Shown: positions 11,533-16,938 of the stretch, piece after piece
Layout of the letters: each line of letters begins with the position of its first letter
How positions within the stretch are numbered: the stretch's first letter is position 1
Program-made: the position numbers and the translations under genes
NCBI RefSeq assembly: GCF_900141815.1
Contig: NZ_FQYR01000009.1
Location: forward strand, 882-64,881
DNA: 64,000 nucleotides
Direction of reading: 5' to 3'
Source: Rubritalea squalenifaciens DSM 18772
GTDB lineage: Bacteria; Verrucomicrobiota; Verrucomicrobiia; Verrucomicrobiales; Akkermansiaceae
The notes under the pieces: model-generated
Databases searched by the model: none
What the model was told of the DNA's origin: nothing
Seen by the model: the letters and a program-made list of their open reading frames with translations, nothing else

Positions 11533-11758
11533 TAGTCTTCTGGAAGATATACTTGCTGCTGCGCCAGAAGAGCAAGGGGCTCTCCACGGTGAGCAGCTGC
11601 CAGCCTTCCTGGGCTTTGCGCGTGAGCGCGCGCGAAAGGATTTCGTTTGCTTGCTTGGGAGAGTAGATCCCATACGAGCTCTTTCCTTCCTCCAGCGAGA
11701 TTTGTTCGCAGAAAAGCTGACTGTGGCTGAGGACGATGACTTCGGTAGATGGATTCAT
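11510..11758 (-). CDS. Small DUF4177-like protein
   Basis: The 82-residue cytoplasmic protein contains 'ANEILSRALTRKAQEGWQLLTV', the core of small DUF4177-type proteins, in which an 'L...A.EGWxLvsv' helix-strand unit is conserved. No function is known for that family. It overlaps the upstream membrane-protein gene by four bases and the plus-strand gene end by 23 bases. Confidence 0.7.
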   Translation of the reverse strand: MNPSTEVIVLSHSQLFCEQISLEEGKSSYGIYSPKQANEILSRALTRKAQEGWQLLTVESPLLFWRSSKYIFQKTTSAACSA

Positions 11759-12075
11759 GCAGGCTTGGTCTGGTTGCGGCGTTTGACTTTGCTGAGGAAG
11801 CTTTTCAGGGAAAGACTGTTGGTGATGAGGGTTAATAGGAAGATAGCAGGATAGGCCAGTGGGTGATGCCCGCTTTCTTCCTGTAGTGCGCTGGCGAGTG
11901 TGGGATCCGGATAAAGCAGGATACTGCCGGTGATGGCACTCACGACCAGAAGTAGCATGCCAAACCTCGGGAATAAACAGGTAATGTAGGCCACAGGCAG
12001 GGCCAGCAGGAAGCCACAGAGCGCGGCATCAAGCAATGACGGAAATTTGTCGGCTATTTCAGCGAGGATGAGCAT
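11755..12075 (-). CDS. Membrane protein
   Basis: A 106-residue protein with about three hydrophobic segments (LLDAALCGFLLALPVAYITCLF, MLLLVVSAITGSILL and YPAIFLLTLITNSLSL) and a basic tail. It is seven bases downstream of the lipoprotein gene and overlaps the DUF4177-like gene by four bases, so three genes form an operon. Function unknown. Confidence 0.7.
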   Translation of the reverse strand: MLILAEIADKFPSLLDAALCGFLLALPVAYITCLFPRFGMLLLVVSAITGSILLYPDPTLASALQEESGHHPLAYPAIFLLTLITNSLSLKSFLSKVKRRNQTKPA

Positions 12076-12082
12076 AGCTATT

Positions 12083-12742
12083 CTATTTCTCAGGGAGGTG
12101 GTCTTTGATGTTCACCGCTTGCTCGCTGTTGCGGGTGATGAAGAGGAGGGAGTCTAACAAAGTATGATCGGCTCTGTCTGCACGCATGACGAGAACCTTT
12201 CTCTCCACTGAGAAAGTGGCGGTTTCGTTTTCCCCGTTAGGCCACGGAGAGCCGTCATCCAGATGGACGGGTTTGCCGTCGGCGTAGAGCCCTATTCGGT
12301 TGAGTTCCTGCTCTGTCATGAGGTGGCTTCTGGTGATAGATCCATCAGCATACTCGTCATGACTTGGTAGTGTATCAGTGATGATGTAGACCCCGTTCTC
12401 ATACCTGATGTGGAGTTGTAGACCTGTTCTCAGAAATTCTAGATAAGCTACGAATGGGAGTTTCAGCGGTTGATTGAGGGTGACCGACCTGGAAAGCGTG
12501 GACTCGTTCTGAATATCGATGCGAAGCTTTCCGCGGTAGTGTTTGTTCGCAAGTGTCTGACGGAGGAGGTCTGCCAGAATGACGCGCAGCTCAGTGTCTT
12601 TGTAGTCGCAGGTGACGATGAGACCTTCATCTTTGTTGGCTGTTTGTGTGGCTTCCTCTCTGGCTGTTGAGTCATCGCGGCTACAGCTGCTGACAGCTAG
12701 AGCTATCAAGGTGAGTGCGCAAAACAGGGAACGGTACAGCAT
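12083..12742 (-). CDS. Lipoprotein with secretin N-terminal-like (STN) segment
   Basis: The 219-residue product has a lipoprotein leader ending in LAVSSC. Residues about 45-125 show the pattern of a secretin/TonB short N-terminal (STN-like) domain: 'KDTELRVILADLLRQTL', 'LRIDIQN', 'VTLNQPLKLPFVAYLEFLRTGLQLHIRYENGVYII', here split by short loops. Such domains bind partner proteins in the periplasm; here it is on a lipid anchor without any secretin. The C-terminal part is unassigned. It leads a three-gene operon. Confidence 0.7.
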   Translation of the reverse strand: MLYRSLFCALTLIALAVSSCSRDDSTAREEATQTANKDEGLIVTCDYKDTELRVILADLLRQTLANKHYRGKLRIDIQNESTLSRSVTLNQPLKLPFVAYLEFLRTGLQLHIRYENGVYIITDTLPSHDEYADGSITRSHLMTEQELNRIGLYADGKPVHLDDGSPWPNGENETATFSVERKVLVMRADRADHTLLDSLLFITRNSEQAVNIKDHLPEK

Positions 12743-12862
12743 AGGAAGATAAAGCTAAGGGACAGCCATGCCTGATGTACAGGGGGAAGTGACGTGATTG
12801 CTTAAGGAAGCCTAAAAGTTAGGATTGGCAGGAGAAGGCTTAACTTGTACATTCTTTTGCAT

Positions 12863-13123
12863 ATGGTTCAGCGGGCAACATCGGATGACGCGGCGTACAT
12901 GGTGCTATTTGCACTGGTTTCGCTTTTGTTGTCGTTTTTCATCCTCGGGGTGAAGGTGTATAGTCACGTGCCCTTCAATGACATGTGGTGCAAGCTGATC
13001 TGCCTGACGGTGGTGGTAGGCTTCCCGCTCTACGCCTTCCTGCGCATTTCCAAAGCAGTTGGCGTGCTCGCGATCCTGATGATGCCTTTCGTCCAGCTGG
13101 CGCTGATGCCTGTGATCTGCTAG
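12863..13123 (+). CDS. Small membrane protein, source of a local duplication
   Basis: About 86 residues with three hydrophobic stretches (YMVLFALVSLLLSFFIL, LICLTVVVGFPLYAFL and VLAILMMPFVQLALMPVI). The ATG at 12863 is chosen; a TTG at 12845 is possible. The last 63 bases of this gene and 53 bases beyond it are repeated 600 bases downstream (13663-13778) as a remnant with three mismatches in 116. Confidence 0.65.
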   Translation: MVQRATSDDAAYMVLFALVSLLLSFFILGVKVYSHVPFNDMWCKLICLTVVVGFPLYAFLRISKAVGVLAILMMPFVQLALMPVIC

Positions 13124-13176
13124 AGGGGCGGCTTGTTAGTATCTACCACAGAATACACGGAAGTGACGGAAGGCTG
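13061..13176. repeat. 116-bp direct repeat, copy A
   Basis: Covers the last part of the small membrane-protein gene, its stop, and a dispersed ACACGGAAG element. Copy B is at 13663-13778; I count three substitutions and no gaps. Confidence 0.9.
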
Positions 13177-13219
13177 ACTTGATGGAGCGCTGGCATGGAG
13201 TCTGTCTGAGTCAATACGG

Positions 13220-13570
13220 TTATCGCCAGCAGTTGACGTAGGTGCTTGCGTGTTTGCCGTTGTGATAGCTCACGCTGTAGTGAGAGTGGTTCATGTAGAG
13301 ATGATAGTGCCCGGCAGAGATGTAGCGGTAGTTGACTGCCCATTGGGTGTGCTCGTCTTTATTTCTGACAAGGGTATCTATGGTTTTGTCAGCTTTGCAG
13401 AGCTGATCCATGTCTTTTGGGAAGTCTCCGTGTTTTTTGTAGAAGTTGTCTGCGGCTTTTTCGTATGGGGCCACGCGCTGGGAGGCGTAGAGGCGGGCGG
13501 CCGATTTAGGGAGGAAGGGGCAGCAGCTGGAGAAGGAGAGGGGGGTGAGGACTACGAGCAGGTGTTTCAT
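13220..13570 (-). CDS. Small lipoprotein
   Basis: The 116-residue protein has a leader ending in LSFSSC or the adjacent Cys, so it is lipid-anchored. The mature part contains 'ADNFYKKHGDFPKDMDQLCK', a short segment like those of pseudopilin-derived and type IV pilin-like secreted proteins (helix followed by 'G.FP.....L'), and 'YRYISAGHYHLYMNHSHYSVSYHNGKH', rich in His and Tyr, which might bind metal. It sits between the two copies of the 116-bp duplication. Confidence 0.7.
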   Translation of the reverse strand: MKHLLVVLTPLSFSSCCPFLPKSAARLYASQRVAPYEKAADNFYKKHGDFPKDMDQLCKADKTIDTLVRNKDEHTQWAVNYRYISAGHYHLYMNHSHYSVSYHNGKHASTYVNCWR

Positions 13571-13662
13571 GGCGGAGGAGTGTAGAGTGAAATGCTCCTC
13601 TCATCAAGTACGCTGCAGCAAGTCTTCCGCGCTCTGGAGGTTATGCGTGGCTCCGGGAGTGG

Positions 13663-13778
13663 GGCGTGCTCGCGATCCTGATGATGCTTTTCGTCCAGCT
13701 GGCGCTGATGCCAGTGATCTGCTAGAGGGGCGGATTGTTAGTATCTACCACAGAATACACGGAAGTGACGGAAGGCTG
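13663..13778 (+). pseudogene. Remnant of duplicated small membrane-protein gene (116-bp repeat, copy B)
   Basis: This stretch repeats 13061-13176. In the matching frame it still reads GVLAILMMLFVQLALMPVIC and a stop. The weak similarity runs a few codons further upstream (YAWLR versus YAFLR) and then fades, and no start codon is left. It is a 3' gene fragment left by a local duplication that spans the lipoprotein gene at 13220-13570. Confidence 0.8.
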
Positions 13779-13801
13779 CTTCACGCAGCTAAACGTTTGT
13801 G

Positions 13802-14236
13802 TCAGTCCTTAAGGGTGACGGCAGTGCCGGAGGCGCAGATCATCAGCATGCCTTGGTTGATGCTTTCGTAATCGATATCGATGCCCACGACGGCATCCGC
13901 GCCCATGGCCTTGGCTTCCTCCAGCATTTCCTGGATGGCGATCTCGCGGCCATTTTTCAGGCTGTTCTCGTAAGCGCCAGCACGGCCACCCACGATATTG
14001 CGGACACTGGCGGCGAAGTCGCGCACGATGTTCGCCCCCATGATGGCTTCCCCGAAGACCACGCCCTTGGTTTCGGAGATTTCCTTGCCGGGAATCTGCG
14101 GTGTGGTGGAACAGGGCATGGAGTAGCCTGACTCCTGAGAGCCGGGGAGATTGCCTAGGCGGTCGGCTTTACAGCACCAGCAGGCAGGATGGATATCGTC
14201 ATTCAGTACTTCGCAGTGTTTACAGGTCCAGCTCAT
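13802..14236 (-). CDS. YbjQ/UPF0145-like protein with N-terminal zinc finger
   Basis: A 144-residue cytoplasmic protein. Residues 3-25 have '[20 protein letters not shown]', a RanBP2-like zinc ribbon with Cys5, Cys8, Cys19 and Cys22. From about 55 on it follows the YbjQ/UPF0145 family (putative heavy-metal-binding domain): '[17 protein letters not shown]', '[19 protein letters not shown]' and '[19 protein letters not shown]'. The family forms pentameric beta-barrel-like assemblies; its substrate is not settled. Adding a zinc finger is a variant. I start at the ATG at 14236 because the sequence before the finger has no ribosome site; a GTG at 14257 is possible. Confidence 0.85.
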
Positions 14237-14309
14237 AGGGGGGAGTTTGATTTCCACCGAGGCTAGGGAGTCGTCCGTGAGCTGGCTAGGAAAAAGCTAG
14301 GCAGTGATC

Positions 14310-14615
14310 ATGAAGCTTGATCGGGCTGGCGACGAAACTAGGATGCTAGGCATGGGACTGGATGGAGTAGAGCTCATCATGGCCGTCGAAGAGGAGTTTG
14401 GTGTCTCCCTAGATGATGCCGAAGTAGCCAGTTTGCGCACGCCAAGAGACCTGACCGCGGTCGTCTGGAAAAAGCTGGAGGCTTGCCATGACAGAGAGGG
14501 TGAATGGACGCAGGAGCGTGTCCGTCAGGTGATAAGGCAGATCATCCGCGAGCAGCTCGGGGTGAAAGACTTTTCCGATGATGCGGAGTTTGTAAGGGAC
14601 TTAGGAGTGGACTAG
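14310..14615 (+). CDS. Acyl-carrier-like protein with the two halves in swapped order
   Basis: This 101-residue protein reads as a carrier protein cut and rejoined. Residues about 14-55 ('LDGVELIMAVEEEF' onward to 'TPRDLTAVVW') correspond to the second half of acyl carrier protein, helices II-IV, while residues about 65-101 ('ERVRQVIRQIIREQLGV' to 'FVRDLGVD' and stop) correspond to the first half, helix I and the loop up to the serine. The modifiable Ser of the DSL motif is absent at both junctions: the C-terminal end stops at DLGVD and the N-terminal part begins LDG. The fold could be that of a circularly permuted carrier, or the protein may pair two monomers. I know of similar bacterial proteins but not of a function. 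ATG at 14310; convergent with the next gene by four bases. Confidence 0.8.
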   Translation: MKLDRAGDETRMLGMGLDGVELIMAVEEEFGVSLDDAEVASLRTPRDLTAVVWKKLEACHDREGEWTQERVRQVIRQIIREQLGVKDFSDDAEFVRDLGVD

Positions 14616-15235
14616 TCTGTGGAAGCTCGCTGCAGAAACTCTTCGGCTCTCTTGGCTGACTCACGGATCTCCTCATTCGGGTCGTTGAGGAGTTTTTCTA
14701 ACAATGCTGGTGCGTGCTCACGGTGCAAATTCATGATGCCGCTGAGGCAGGCGATGCGGGTAAGGTGAAAGAGGCGTTGGTCTAGGGCTCCTTTGGTGAG
14801 GTAGTCCTGTGTATTCGGATTGGAAAGATTGGAAAGGATGTCTCCGGATTTCCATGAAATCTCTCCACCGCCAGTATGCAAGAGCCAGTCGCCAAGGCGG
14901 TGGACAAGAGTATCTTCTGCTGGATAAGCCTCCTCGCGTTCGTCGAGCAGCATCACGAGAGCGTAGAGATAATCCGCCAGCCATGGTGCTTTTTCCAGCT
15001 TTGCCGTGGAGACTTTATCAATCAAGGGTTGGATGAAGGCCGGGTCTTCAGTCTCTTCAATGAGGGAGGCAAAGCGGTTGGTGTTCTCAATGCTCTCAGG
15101 CTGGGCAATGATCTCCATAAGCTTCTCGCAAATCGTCTGGTCGATCAGTTCAGGGTTTTCAGAGAGCATGGCCAATGCTGCGTTGCGGGTGTCGAGGGAG
15201 TCGAGTTTGGCGAGGAGTTCTGTGTTCAAATTCAC
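14612..15235 (-). CDS. HEAT-repeat-like protein
   Basis: A 207-residue soluble, acidic, almost wholly helical protein. Several helix pairs are visible, for example 'ELLAKLDSLDTRNAALAMLSENPELI' at the start and 'EKLLNDPNEEIRESAKRAEEFL' at the end, typical of HEAT/armadillo-like repeats (PxxRxxA). Such repeats mediate protein binding. It overlaps the upstream membrane gene by four bases (translational coupling) and the plus-strand carrier gene by four bases. It has a distant partner at 40695-41057. Confidence 0.75.
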   Translation of the reverse strand: MNLNTELLAKLDSLDTRNAALAMLSENPELIDQTICEKLMEIIAQPESIENTNRFASLIEETEDPAFIQPLIDKVSTAKLEKAPWLADYLYALVMLLDEREEAYPAEDTLVHRLGDWLLHTGGGEISWKSGDILSNLSNPNTQDYLTKGALDQRLFHLTRIACLSGIMNLHREHAPALLEKLLNDPNEEIRESAKRAEEFLQRASTD

Positions 15236-15525
15236 TGAGTTGTCTGTTTACTGCGGATTTCCATCTGGCGGCGGTTGAAGTGACGGATGCCCAGAGGCAG
15301 GAAGATGGCGTAGGGGGTCCATGCGAGAGGGCCGTAGTTGCCGGGGAGGGTGAAGAGCAGGGTCAGGAAAATGCTGATGCCCAGCCAGAAGTTAAGGGTG
15401 GCTTTGATCATGAAGCGTCGCTCCACCGCACTCTGGGTATTGCGGATACTGAAGTAGCTGCCAGCAATGCCGCCGAGCAGGCCGATGCCGCTGCCTATGA
15501 TAGCGCCGAGTGTTCCTGAATCCAT
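15232..15525 (-). CDS. Small membrane protein
   Basis: A 97-residue protein opening with a Gly-rich hydrophobic helix (LGAIIGSGIGLLGGIAGSYF) and two further helices (FWLGISIFLTLLFTL and WTPYAIFLPLGI), ending in a basic tail. The first helix followed by 'SIRNTQSAVERRFMIK' resembles small bacterial membrane proteins of unknown role. Its stop overlaps the start of the HEAT-like gene by four bases. Confidence 0.7.
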   Translation of the reverse strand: MDSGTLGAIIGSGIGLLGGIAGSYFSIRNTQSAVERRFMIKATLNFWLGISIFLTLLFTLPGNYGPLAWTPYAIFLPLGIRHFNRRQMEIRSKQTTQ

Positions 15526-15596
15526 GGTAAGGGGTGTTAGCTAGATGAGGTGAAGTGTAGCAGATGGAGGGATCTTGTCTGCACAGAAAAGGAGAA

Positions 15597-15736
15597 TCAC
15601 TTGGCCAACTCCTTCTTGAGTCTATTGATGCGTTCAAGGATGAGGGCTTCCATGTGCGAGGCTGATTCCATGTGACCCAGAAAAAGGGTGACGCGGCAGG
15701 CGTGATGCGGTATGAATCTGAGTTGAACTTCTGTGT
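15597..15736 (-). pseudogene. Possible 5'-truncated gene fragment
   Basis: In one minus-strand frame this stretch reads without interruption and looks coding (VQLRFIPHHACRVTLF, then a helix with MESASHMEALILERINRL) up to a TGA at 15597-15599. The only ATG codons lie late (15671 and further on), leaving just a 24-residue frame. Upstream a stop comes before any usable start codon. It may be the tail of a decayed gene or a very small protein. Low certainty. Confidence 0.35.
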
Positions 15737-15745
15737 GCGCTCGTG

Positions 15746-16156
15746 ATGATCAATACTTTAATGCAACTCCCCAGAACCAAGCTCTCCTATGAGGAGGGCA
15801 TGTTAGTGAAGCGTGGTGAGGGTGATGGTGTGGTGGCTACCTTTCCTCTGAAAGAGATTACCCGGATCGAGGTGGAGGTGCGGCGTGAGTACGCTACGCC
15901 GATCGTGCTGATGGCGGGGATGCTGGGGCTGGCCTGGGTGAGCCTGAGATTCATCCCGAATGAAGGCTGGTCCTGGGCGGCTTGCATCGTCTGTGTGGTC
16001 TTCGCGATGATGTGCCTGTTAGGCGTGGAGACGCGGCACATTACCCTGCACACGGACAATGGCGTGGTGAGCTACCTGATCAATGACGACTACGGCGAGG
16101 CCGAGGGATTCATTGTTTCCCTGCGGACGGCGGTGTGTGCGAGCCGTGGACTTTGA
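15746..16156 (+). CDS. Membrane protein, PH-like layout
   Basis: The 136-residue product has a soluble N-terminal part ('FPLKEITRIEVEVRREY', strand-like), two hydrophobic segments (PIVLMAGMLGLAWVSLRF and WAACIVCVVFAMMCLLGV), then 'RHITLHTDNGVVSYLI'. Two membrane helices inserted between beta strands are common in bacterial PH-like membrane proteins; the assignment is tentative. ATG at 15746 is used; GTG at 15743 directly precedes it. Confidence 0.65.
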   Translation: MINTLMQLPRTKLSYEEGMLVKRGEGDGVVATFPLKEITRIEVEVRREYATPIVLMAGMLGLAWVSLRFIPNEGWSWAACIVCVVFAMMCLLGVETRHITLHTDNGVVSYLINDDYGEAEGFIVSLRTAVCASRGL

Positions 16157-16199
16157 GCGCATTTGGATGTATCTTTCCTGTAGTAAGGATGACCCCGGA

Positions 16200-16511
16200 A
16201 TGAAGCGCGTCTTGACCTTCACATTCATGTTTATGCTGAGCCTGCTCTTGATGGCGGGTGTGTGGGGCTATTGTGTGAATGGGGTGGTCTATCATTGTAC
16301 GGACGGATTATGGCTGGATTTCTTTTCCCCCGGGCAGTGGGTGCATGAGCCTGTGGAGCGGGTGATCGCGGTGGATCGCGCCGCCGGCATGGGGGAGGCA
16401 GACAGCATGCTCTATGGCTGGTCGGTAGGCCGCCTTTGGTTGCTCTGGGGAGGCATGGTGGCGATGTGTCTCTCGCTCAGCGGGATTGTGACTTGTTGCC
16501 GGGATCTCTAG
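16200..16511 (+). CDS. Two-span membrane protein, paralogue of 39838-40206
   Basis: The 103-residue protein has an N-terminal helix (VLTFTFMFMLSLLLMAGVWGY) and a C-terminal helix (LWLLWGGMVAMCLSLSGIV) with a 60-residue external loop containing 'LDFFSPGQWVHEPVERV'. The protein at 39838-40206 shares the same design: first helix, 'LEFLNPGYWVTADYEL' and 'LLVLWWGMVLASIFGALGL'. Start ATG 16200 places the first helix at the N terminus; the frame is open further upstream without coding character. Confidence 0.7.
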   Translation: MKRVLTFTFMFMLSLLLMAGVWGYCVNGVVYHCTDGLWLDFFSPGQWVHEPVERVIAVDRAAGMGEADSMLYGWSVGRLWLLWGGMVAMCLSLSGIVTCCRDL

Positions 16512-16530
16512 CGCCTATGCATCTCGGGAA

Positions 16531-16938
16531 ATGACGATGAAGAAGCAAGTGTGCAGCCAATGCGGTGGTGAGGAATGGATCAAGAAACTCCGTGTGGTGG
16601 ACCGTGGCGAGGACAATGCCCGCTATGACCTGGCGCTGGAAATGGAGATGAATCCGCAGGCCATCCTTTTCAAGGAGCGCGTTAATGCCCCGCTACACGC
16701 CGATGTCTGCGCGGGCTGCGGTCTGGTGCTCTTCCAGGTGTCCCCGGTCTCCCTGCAGATGCTGAAGGCTGGCAAGCAGCTGACCGAAGAGCGCGAGAGC
16801 GCGGATGCGAAAAGCGGAGATTTCCGCAATCACCCACGTTATCAAGAATTTCTCGCCGAAGATGCCGCCTACAAGTTCATGGAAGGCAGCGAGGTGATGC
16901 TCGCCTTCGCCCAGTGGCTGGCACGCAAGGAGAGATAA
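16531..16938 (+). CDS. Zinc-ribbon protein
   Basis: A 135-residue cytoplasmic protein with two Cys pairs, Cys8/Cys11 (CSQCGG) and Cys60/Cys63 (CAGCG), spaced as in a split zinc ribbon. Between them lies 'LRVVDRGEDNARYDLALEME'. The C-terminal 60 residues are helical and end basic. The layout resembles small bacterial zinc-ribbon proteins of unknown function. Confidence 0.7.
   Translation: MTMKKQVCSQCGGEEWIKKLRVVDRGEDNARYDLALEMEMNPQAILFKERVNAPLHADVCAGCGLVLFQVSPVSLQMLKAGKQLTEERESADAKSGDFRNHPRYQEFLAEDAAYKFMEGSEVMLAFAQWLARKER

Follow-up and report, generated by a model that had tools for sequence, protein, structure and literature searches.

A patchily distributed family of permuted, serine-less acyl carrier protein-like proteins, with a short member in Rubritalea squalenifaciens

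A short gene of Rubritalea squalenifaciens is, by its sequence, a member of a widespread, patchy family in which the second half of the acyl carrier protein (ACP) fold precedes the first half, and in which the serine that anchors phosphopantetheine is absent. The ACP fold family itself is already known; the permuted, serine-less variant appears to be undescribed. We consider it very probable that the window protein (the window being the whole stretch of 64,000 nucleotides analysed here) is a permuted ACP fold and not a carrier. Our explanation as a whole, a permuted, serine-less family of ACP-fold proteins with a role in docking or decoying, has in our estimate a probability of about 0.45.

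Results and Discussion

Gene and order of the two halves

The open reading frame spans positions 14304 to 14615 on the forward strand. The original prediction placed the gene at 14310-14615; the frame is real, but this start is off by 42 nucleotides. The third in-frame ATG, at 14352, is the likely start, since the ACP-like part of the relatives begins at the corresponding Met-Gly and the sequence upstream is not shared. By eye, the relatives have no sequence in common upstream of Met-Gly, which directly follows a stop codon in the relatives L073 and L094 and lies one codon after a stop in several others. With this start the gene occupies 14352-14615 (forward strand, stop codon included), encodes 87 amino acids and has a coding-like GC content over the three codon positions (0.69/0.34/0.63); a possible ribosome-binding site, AGGA at 14340-14343, can be read 8 nucleotides before the ATG. 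The in-frame upstream extension at 14310-14351, with alternative starts at 14304, 14310 and 14343, is probably untranslated. The host genome carries, as far as found, a single permuted copy and one ordinary ACP.

The original prediction also held that the second half of ACP comes first in this chain and the first half last. Compared with a hidden Markov model (HMM) built from 25 ordinary ACPs (75 positions), residues 3-41 match HMM positions 35-73 (31.3 bits) and residues 59-87 match positions 3-33 (13.6 bits); once the halves are re-ordered, a single match of 55.3 bits covers positions 3-73 of the 75, which bears the claim out. In its native order the whole protein scores 45.6 bits with the same HMM, versus 13.7 bits for the best of 2000 shuffled sequences. 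The Pfam PP-binding model PF00550 matches in two stretches (39.3 bits, above its curated cut-off of 20.8; E = 1.1e-9), and the NCBIfam ACP models likewise match in two stretches, with scores for the 87-residue protein below their cut-offs (TIGR00517, 42.3 vs 70.45 bits; NF002148, 46.1 vs 71 bits). The helix order I-II-III-IV of PF00550 is absent, the halves being crossed, and the same crossing is seen with three PDB ACP chains among the matches listed with an alignment. A profile search aligning the halves to unrelated domains had been named as a possible refutation; both halves match ACPs. The correspondence to E. coli AcpP, described earlier as almost residue by residue, is correct in register but overstated in identity, which amounts to 15 of 42 aligned residues in the N-terminal half and 15 of 33 in the C-terminal half.

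By these matches the N-terminal half (residues 1-43; 14352-14480, forward strand) corresponds to ACP helices II, III and IV, and the C-terminal half (residues 54-87; 14511-14612) to helix I and the loop up to Asp35. The linker between them (14481-14510) is the site at which, according to the alignment and the model of a relative, most relatives carry a whole inserted ACP-like fold.

The break point and the phosphopantetheine site

In the N-terminal half, residue n corresponds to AcpP residue n+34, so that Gly2 takes the place of Ser36, and the last residue, Asp87, corresponds to AcpP Asp35, one before the phosphopantetheine serine. The invariant DSL serine of PF00550 ahead of helix II is missing and Gly2 stands there. 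The modifiable serine is absent at both junctions, as first noted, and judged by its sequence the window protein cannot take up phosphopantetheine at the canonical site. The description of the protein as a circularly permuted carrier is therefore kept for the permutation, with none of the 84 proteins of the set described below in ACP order, and given up for the carrier, with glycine at the serine position. The earlier reading of the sequence is right, and stronger than it was stated, once the word 'carrier' is dropped.

The same ends recur in the family. Gly2 is found in 84 of 84 members, a count biased by the pattern used in the scan, and the exact terminus DLG-x-D in 44 of 84, with close variants in most of the others; no conserved replacement for the attachment serine was found in the set. 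Among 36 members (window protein included) identified by profile or protein searches that imposed no N-terminal pattern, 28 start with Met-Gly and 8 do not, a sample in which some bias remains from queries that began with MG. Acidic ACP positions are kept at the equivalents of Asp38 (83/84), Glu41 (84/84) and Glu47 (84/84), the first two being partly forced by the pattern. Five of the eight members without Met-Gly form a sister group in Bacteroidota (L155-L159) that keeps the order of the halves, although its two ends are remodelled and, by eye, much of the acidic face is lost. In this group the MGLD start and the DLGxD end are lost, and the chain stops soon after the loop that precedes the latter motif. 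One of its members, L158, has a serine at the Ser36 position in a hand alignment, within a different motif.

Membership and distribution of the family

Across 84,980 species genomes, scanning yielded 105 matches to a pattern and, with them, 85 relatives, of which 80 were kept; most of the set was retrieved with the pattern MGLD[GS]VEL[VI], which fixes the first nine residues. From the 80 loci we dropped two that run off the contig (L080, L127) and three with short or broken frames (L076, L125, L130), and added nine others, the window protein among them, to give a set of 84, that is, the window protein and 83 relatives with near-copies retained. L009, whose frame runs beyond the usual end, and L013, L015 and L043, which lack a second half, are excluded, and L168, L170-L173, L177 and L179-L183 stand outside the counts. 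The relatives come from about ten phyla: Verrucomicrobiota, Lentisphaerota, Kiritimatiellota, Planctomycetota, Bacteroidota, Pseudomonadota, Thermodesulfobacteriota, Acidobacteriota, Gemmatimonadota, Cyanobacteriota/Melainabacteria, Sumerlaeota and Riflebacteria.

With the HMM of ordinary ACPs, the second half of ACP is found at the N-terminus in 84 of 84 members, and the first half at the C-terminus passes a domain E of 0.01 in 67 and fails in 17. No member (0/84) has the halves in ACP order by this HMM, for which diverged inserts are too weak to score, so that the order is fixed in the set, a point on which a homologue search had originally been proposed. The best score rises on re-ordering in every member (84/84; median 58.7 vs 34.7 bits native), and a profile of the re-ordered halves aligns with ordinary ACPs over 74 columns at 36% identity (probability 99.85, one-pair E = 1.6e-30). 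The window protein itself opens with the second half, closes with the first and has no serine at the junction. The expectation that a similar family might exist in databases is borne out by the genomes but not by Pfam or NCBIfam, where the scanned members have only partial ACP matches; in Pfam, NCBIfam and PADLOC we found no family that describes the window protein beyond such matches. Among the open-access papers listed in literature searches, none describes a permuted or serine-less ACP family.

Within phyla the distribution is sparse. In the Verrucomicrobiota sample 22 of 387 genomes match at 1e-10, of which 10 carry the family (one without a second half) and 12 were set aside as ordinary-ACP-like, four loci having been checked by sequence. 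The other samples were searched with a long-form profile at 1e-15; each count includes the centre genome, and matches confined to the initial part of the profile were set aside. This profile under-counts short forms, the phyla of the sample centres are inferred, and the matches set aside were partly unread. On this basis the family is present in 7 of 246 genomes for Planctomycetota, 8 of 296 for Bacteroidota (sister group included), 3 of 299 for Pseudomonadota, 2 of 149 for Acidobacteriota (one match unread), 3 of 148 for Thermodesulfobacteriota (one being the short form L176) and 1 of 194 for Cyanobacteriota.

Several loci show unusual arrangements. A Burkholderiaceae genome (G432, near L063) has a tandem pair of full-length members separated by 63 bases (C162:18267-19700), and two copies also occur in genomes G431 and G434. 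One member (L056/L108) lies on a contig filed as viral and has zero branch length among Planctomycetota members; the contig may be bacterial and misfiled, or the gene may have been transferred recently. A search with a 229-residue form gave no plasmid match, and one with a 197-residue form matched a Persicobacter plasmid (two pieces, 52.8% identity) and, over part of its length, one from Sphingobium, a match whose sequence was left unread. Four phage records match part of a 232-residue form; in the two inspected, the matching stretch coincides with a gene labelled 'acyl carrier protein', and these were taken, with their sequences unread, for ordinary ACPs.

The insert and its loss

Most members would carry, between the two halves, a basic, serine-less ACP-like fold, a conclusion drawn from sequence profiles and a model. 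Of the 84 members, 39 have about 170-200 residues and no hydrophobic segment, and 34 have about 210-245 residues with two (24), one (9) or no (1) hydrophobic segments by a simple hydropathy rule; these are probably membrane segments. Two members, L120 and L136, reach 426-427 residues with four and five hydrophobic segments, and contain a second, weaker match to the insert (14.4 and 9.8 bits in L120, 7.3 bits in L136).

The AlphaFold model of a 178-residue relative (L111; pLDDT 91.4, pTM 0.81) places a fold of ordinary order between the halves: residues ~49-138 match carrier proteins with Z of 9.1 to 6.0 over the best 50 rows, nearly all of which are carrier proteins by title, and the insert aligns with the ACP of T. 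thermophilus over 77 residues at 2.8 A. Middling Z scores are common for helical proteins, and for this reason the independent match of the insert profile matters. Inserts without hydrophobic segments match the ACP profile in ordinary order over 66 columns (one-pair E = 1.5e-6), inserts of the forms with hydrophobic segments match it poorly (28 columns, probability 27.6, one-pair E = 6.5e-4), and all inserts pooled match over 51 columns (one-pair E = 4e-6). No insert of the set of 84 passes the HMM of ordinary ACPs, and in the alignment no DSL serine stands out in the insert. As means over 51 members, the first two parts of the insert have charges of +2.3 and +3.0, versus -6.3 for residues 1-27 of the permuted domain, and 46 of these 51 have a cysteine at the start of the insert.

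Short forms like the window protein make up 9 of the 82 rows in a tree built from only the two halves (81 columns; L120 and L136 left out), in which the deep forks are without resolution. Their placement requires 7 changes, and well supported branches force at least 3 of these; a single clade of short forms is rejected (AU test, p = 0.00016). The short form of Azonexus stands beside a 222-residue form of Desulfobulbus (support 100/86), and the window protein stands among Akkermansiaceae-type forms of 170-190 residues (support 86/93, not starred); across the halves it is most similar to long forms, with 61% identity to L005, a protein from its own genus, and 62% to L061. The short form L176 of Thermodesulfobacteriota, whose halves are closest to the 241-residue form L082, apparently retains the first residues of the insert ahead of its C-terminal half. 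We infer that the insert was lost repeatedly while the permuted core was kept, which implies that the two halves make up an independent unit.

Predicted fold

Structure prediction of the monomer had been suggested as a check of the original prediction, and AlphaFold, from an alignment of 34 rows of which 28 were separate halves, returned a confident four-helix monomer for the 87-residue protein (pLDDT 86, pTM 0.76), with helices at residues 5-16, 22-26, 31-45 and 54-69 and coil at residues 46-53. Foldseek aligned the N-terminal half with ACPs (best 44 columns, 36% identity, 2.3 A), with no match at E <= 0.001. By VIA-align the ACP chains score Z 4-5.4, the best at 5.4 lying below an unrelated top row at 5.8; these ACP rows have 6-15% identity, which means that they are probably not in the permuted register, and we set them aside as support for the fold. 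The window protein is predicted to be a permuted ACP-like four-helix bundle, in which the chain would start at the phosphopantetheine site with helix II, pass through helices III and IV to helix I, end just before the site, and close as a single bundle.

The strongest alternative, which we regard as unlikely, is a domain-swapped oligomer, in which the linker is too short for the chain to reach its own helix I and two chains complete each other; such an oligomer may still dock. The short linker, predicted as coil over residues 46-53, speaks for a swap, as does the topology of ACP, which may place the ends of helices IV and I on opposite sides of the bundle along its length. However, the model closes as a single chain at the confidence given above, and long relatives keep the same halves although these are separated by some 100 or more residues.

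Genomic neighbourhood

Clustering of 956 neighbouring open reading frames from the 80 loci gave no conserved operon partner, a candidate that we rejected: the largest cluster covers only 6 loci at 0.9-4.2 kb from the gene, and clusters near the gene in every member come from closely related contigs or from pairs of loci. Pfam scans of unsystematic picks agree, with 108 families and none in more than three of 123 Bacteroidota neighbours (148 listed), and 136 families and none in more than two of 100 other neighbours (140 listed). Among the neighbours clustered or scanned with Pfam, no ACP-pathway partner is conserved beyond close relatives. Two local associations were observed. Three Obscuribacterales-type loci share a gene 6 nucleotides upstream (L092:7294-7995, L095:208-666, L097:7288-7989), probably a PhyH-type dioxygenase according to two PhyH Pfam matches. 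Two alphaproteobacterial short forms lie 12 and 7 nucleotides from genes that are 52.8% identical to each other (L123:1798-2556 and L134:7236-7994), stand on different sides of the family gene and are probably family-2 glycosyltransferases.

In the window, 8 of the 10 neighbouring reading frames at 11755-16935 have no Pfam match at E 0.01, and none of the other 11 genomes examined from the genus has a match to the next gene (14612-15235, reverse strand, 207 residues); this is perhaps a lineage-specific orphan region. A direct repeat of 116 nucleotides (13061-13176 and 13663-13778, 97% identical, 602 nucleotides apart) lies close upstream of the permuted gene, within a run of small orphan genes.

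Such patchy genes without a fixed partner, among neighbours that lack Pfam families and beside a gene unmatched in the genus, would also suit an orphan of the immunity or anti-toxin type, that is, an ACP-like bundle that neutralises a toxin or an effector that uses ACP, and colicin E immunity proteins do belong to the ACP-like fold class. The neighbourhoods and database searches make this improbable, more so than the domain swap. PADLOC-DB gave no convincing match, the best having E = 0.015 for the window protein, and nothing at E <= 0.1 for four relatives. No immunity family is present among the 25 commonest families of the 123 Bacteroidota neighbours, where only two RhuM 'virulence' proteins appear, or among the 25 listed for the 100 other neighbours, with only two Uma2 'putative restriction endonuclease' proteins. 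The ten window neighbours scanned with Pfam include no nuclease family.

Proposed function

As a working proposal for the permuted, serine-less fold, the acidic face retained on helix II would dock, or act as a decoy for, proteins that normally bind ACP. One study describes contacts between acidic residues that follow the ACP serine in the chain and electropositive docking surfaces on AcpS and AasS (PMC13159022). Together with the absence of the serine, the ACP-like acidic helix II and the basic fold in the long forms, these contacts suggest a docking or decoy module. In the long relatives the permuted core would be joined to the basic, serine-less ACP-like fold, often with hydrophobic segments. 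We hold this ACP-mimic function tentatively, with the odds somewhat against it. The acidic face may instead be inherited structure and not a docking site, and decoying would not be general in the family, since the sister group L155-L159 lost MGLD and, by eye, much of this face.

A more speculative reading, which we think quite improbable, gives the break point itself a function: the termini replace the serine, the exposed N-terminal glycine is a new functional group that may be modified or sensed by partners, and the basic insert is a built-in partner, often at the membrane. Slightly less credible still is an active carrier with another nucleophile, either the amine of the N-terminal glycine, exposed by removal of Met at the place of Ser36, or a cysteine. 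The Met-Gly start of 28 of the 36 members found without the pattern and the cysteine at the start of 46 of 51 inserts could be read in this way, but Met-Gly is missing from 8 of the 36, the cysteine is part of the insert and absent from short forms, and no conserved neighbour suggests an enzyme for such a reaction. That two broken ACP fragments were fused by assembly or decay, as a single such gene in its genome and a tested neighbour unmatched in the genus might suggest, is refuted by the existence of the family, with the same break point recurring over the set of 84 in cultured and uncultured genomes.

Relation to known systems

The window protein resembles AcpP, the type II ACP (TIGR00517, NF002148, PF00550), in the register of helices II-IV and of helix I with its loop, in the acidic helix II and in the predicted four-helix bundle; it differs in its swapped halves, in termini that lie at the phosphopantetheine site and in the absent serine. 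Colicin E immunity proteins are likewise small helical bundles for binding and not for carrying, but the halves of the window protein match ACPs, and no colicin E immunity family is found among its Pfam matches at E up to 10.

The long relatives are comparable to tandem ACP doublets and arrays in having several ACP folds per chain, and the prodigiosin ACP doublet (PDB 5y08) is row 39 among the L111 fold matches listed. Unlike in tandem ACPs, the repeats are half a unit out of phase, and the end halves close a fold around the insert. In our reading, each long chain is a series of ACP folds offset by half a unit, with the first and last halves closing one fold, much as the blades of beta-propellers close first to last. 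A genome of the Acidobacteriota sample (L174) has two ordinary ACP genes in tandem, and an array of this kind could be the source of a half-shifted repeat.

Conclusions

The ACP is among the best-studied folds, and we found no report of its natural circular permutation in the open-access literature. A permutation located at the attachment point, spread over some ten phyla, with the serine gone and a second ACP-like fold nested inside, amounts to a natural experiment on the roles of this fold beyond carrying acyl groups. For annotation, the consequence is that proteins flagged by a PP-binding match alone may be unable to act as carriers.
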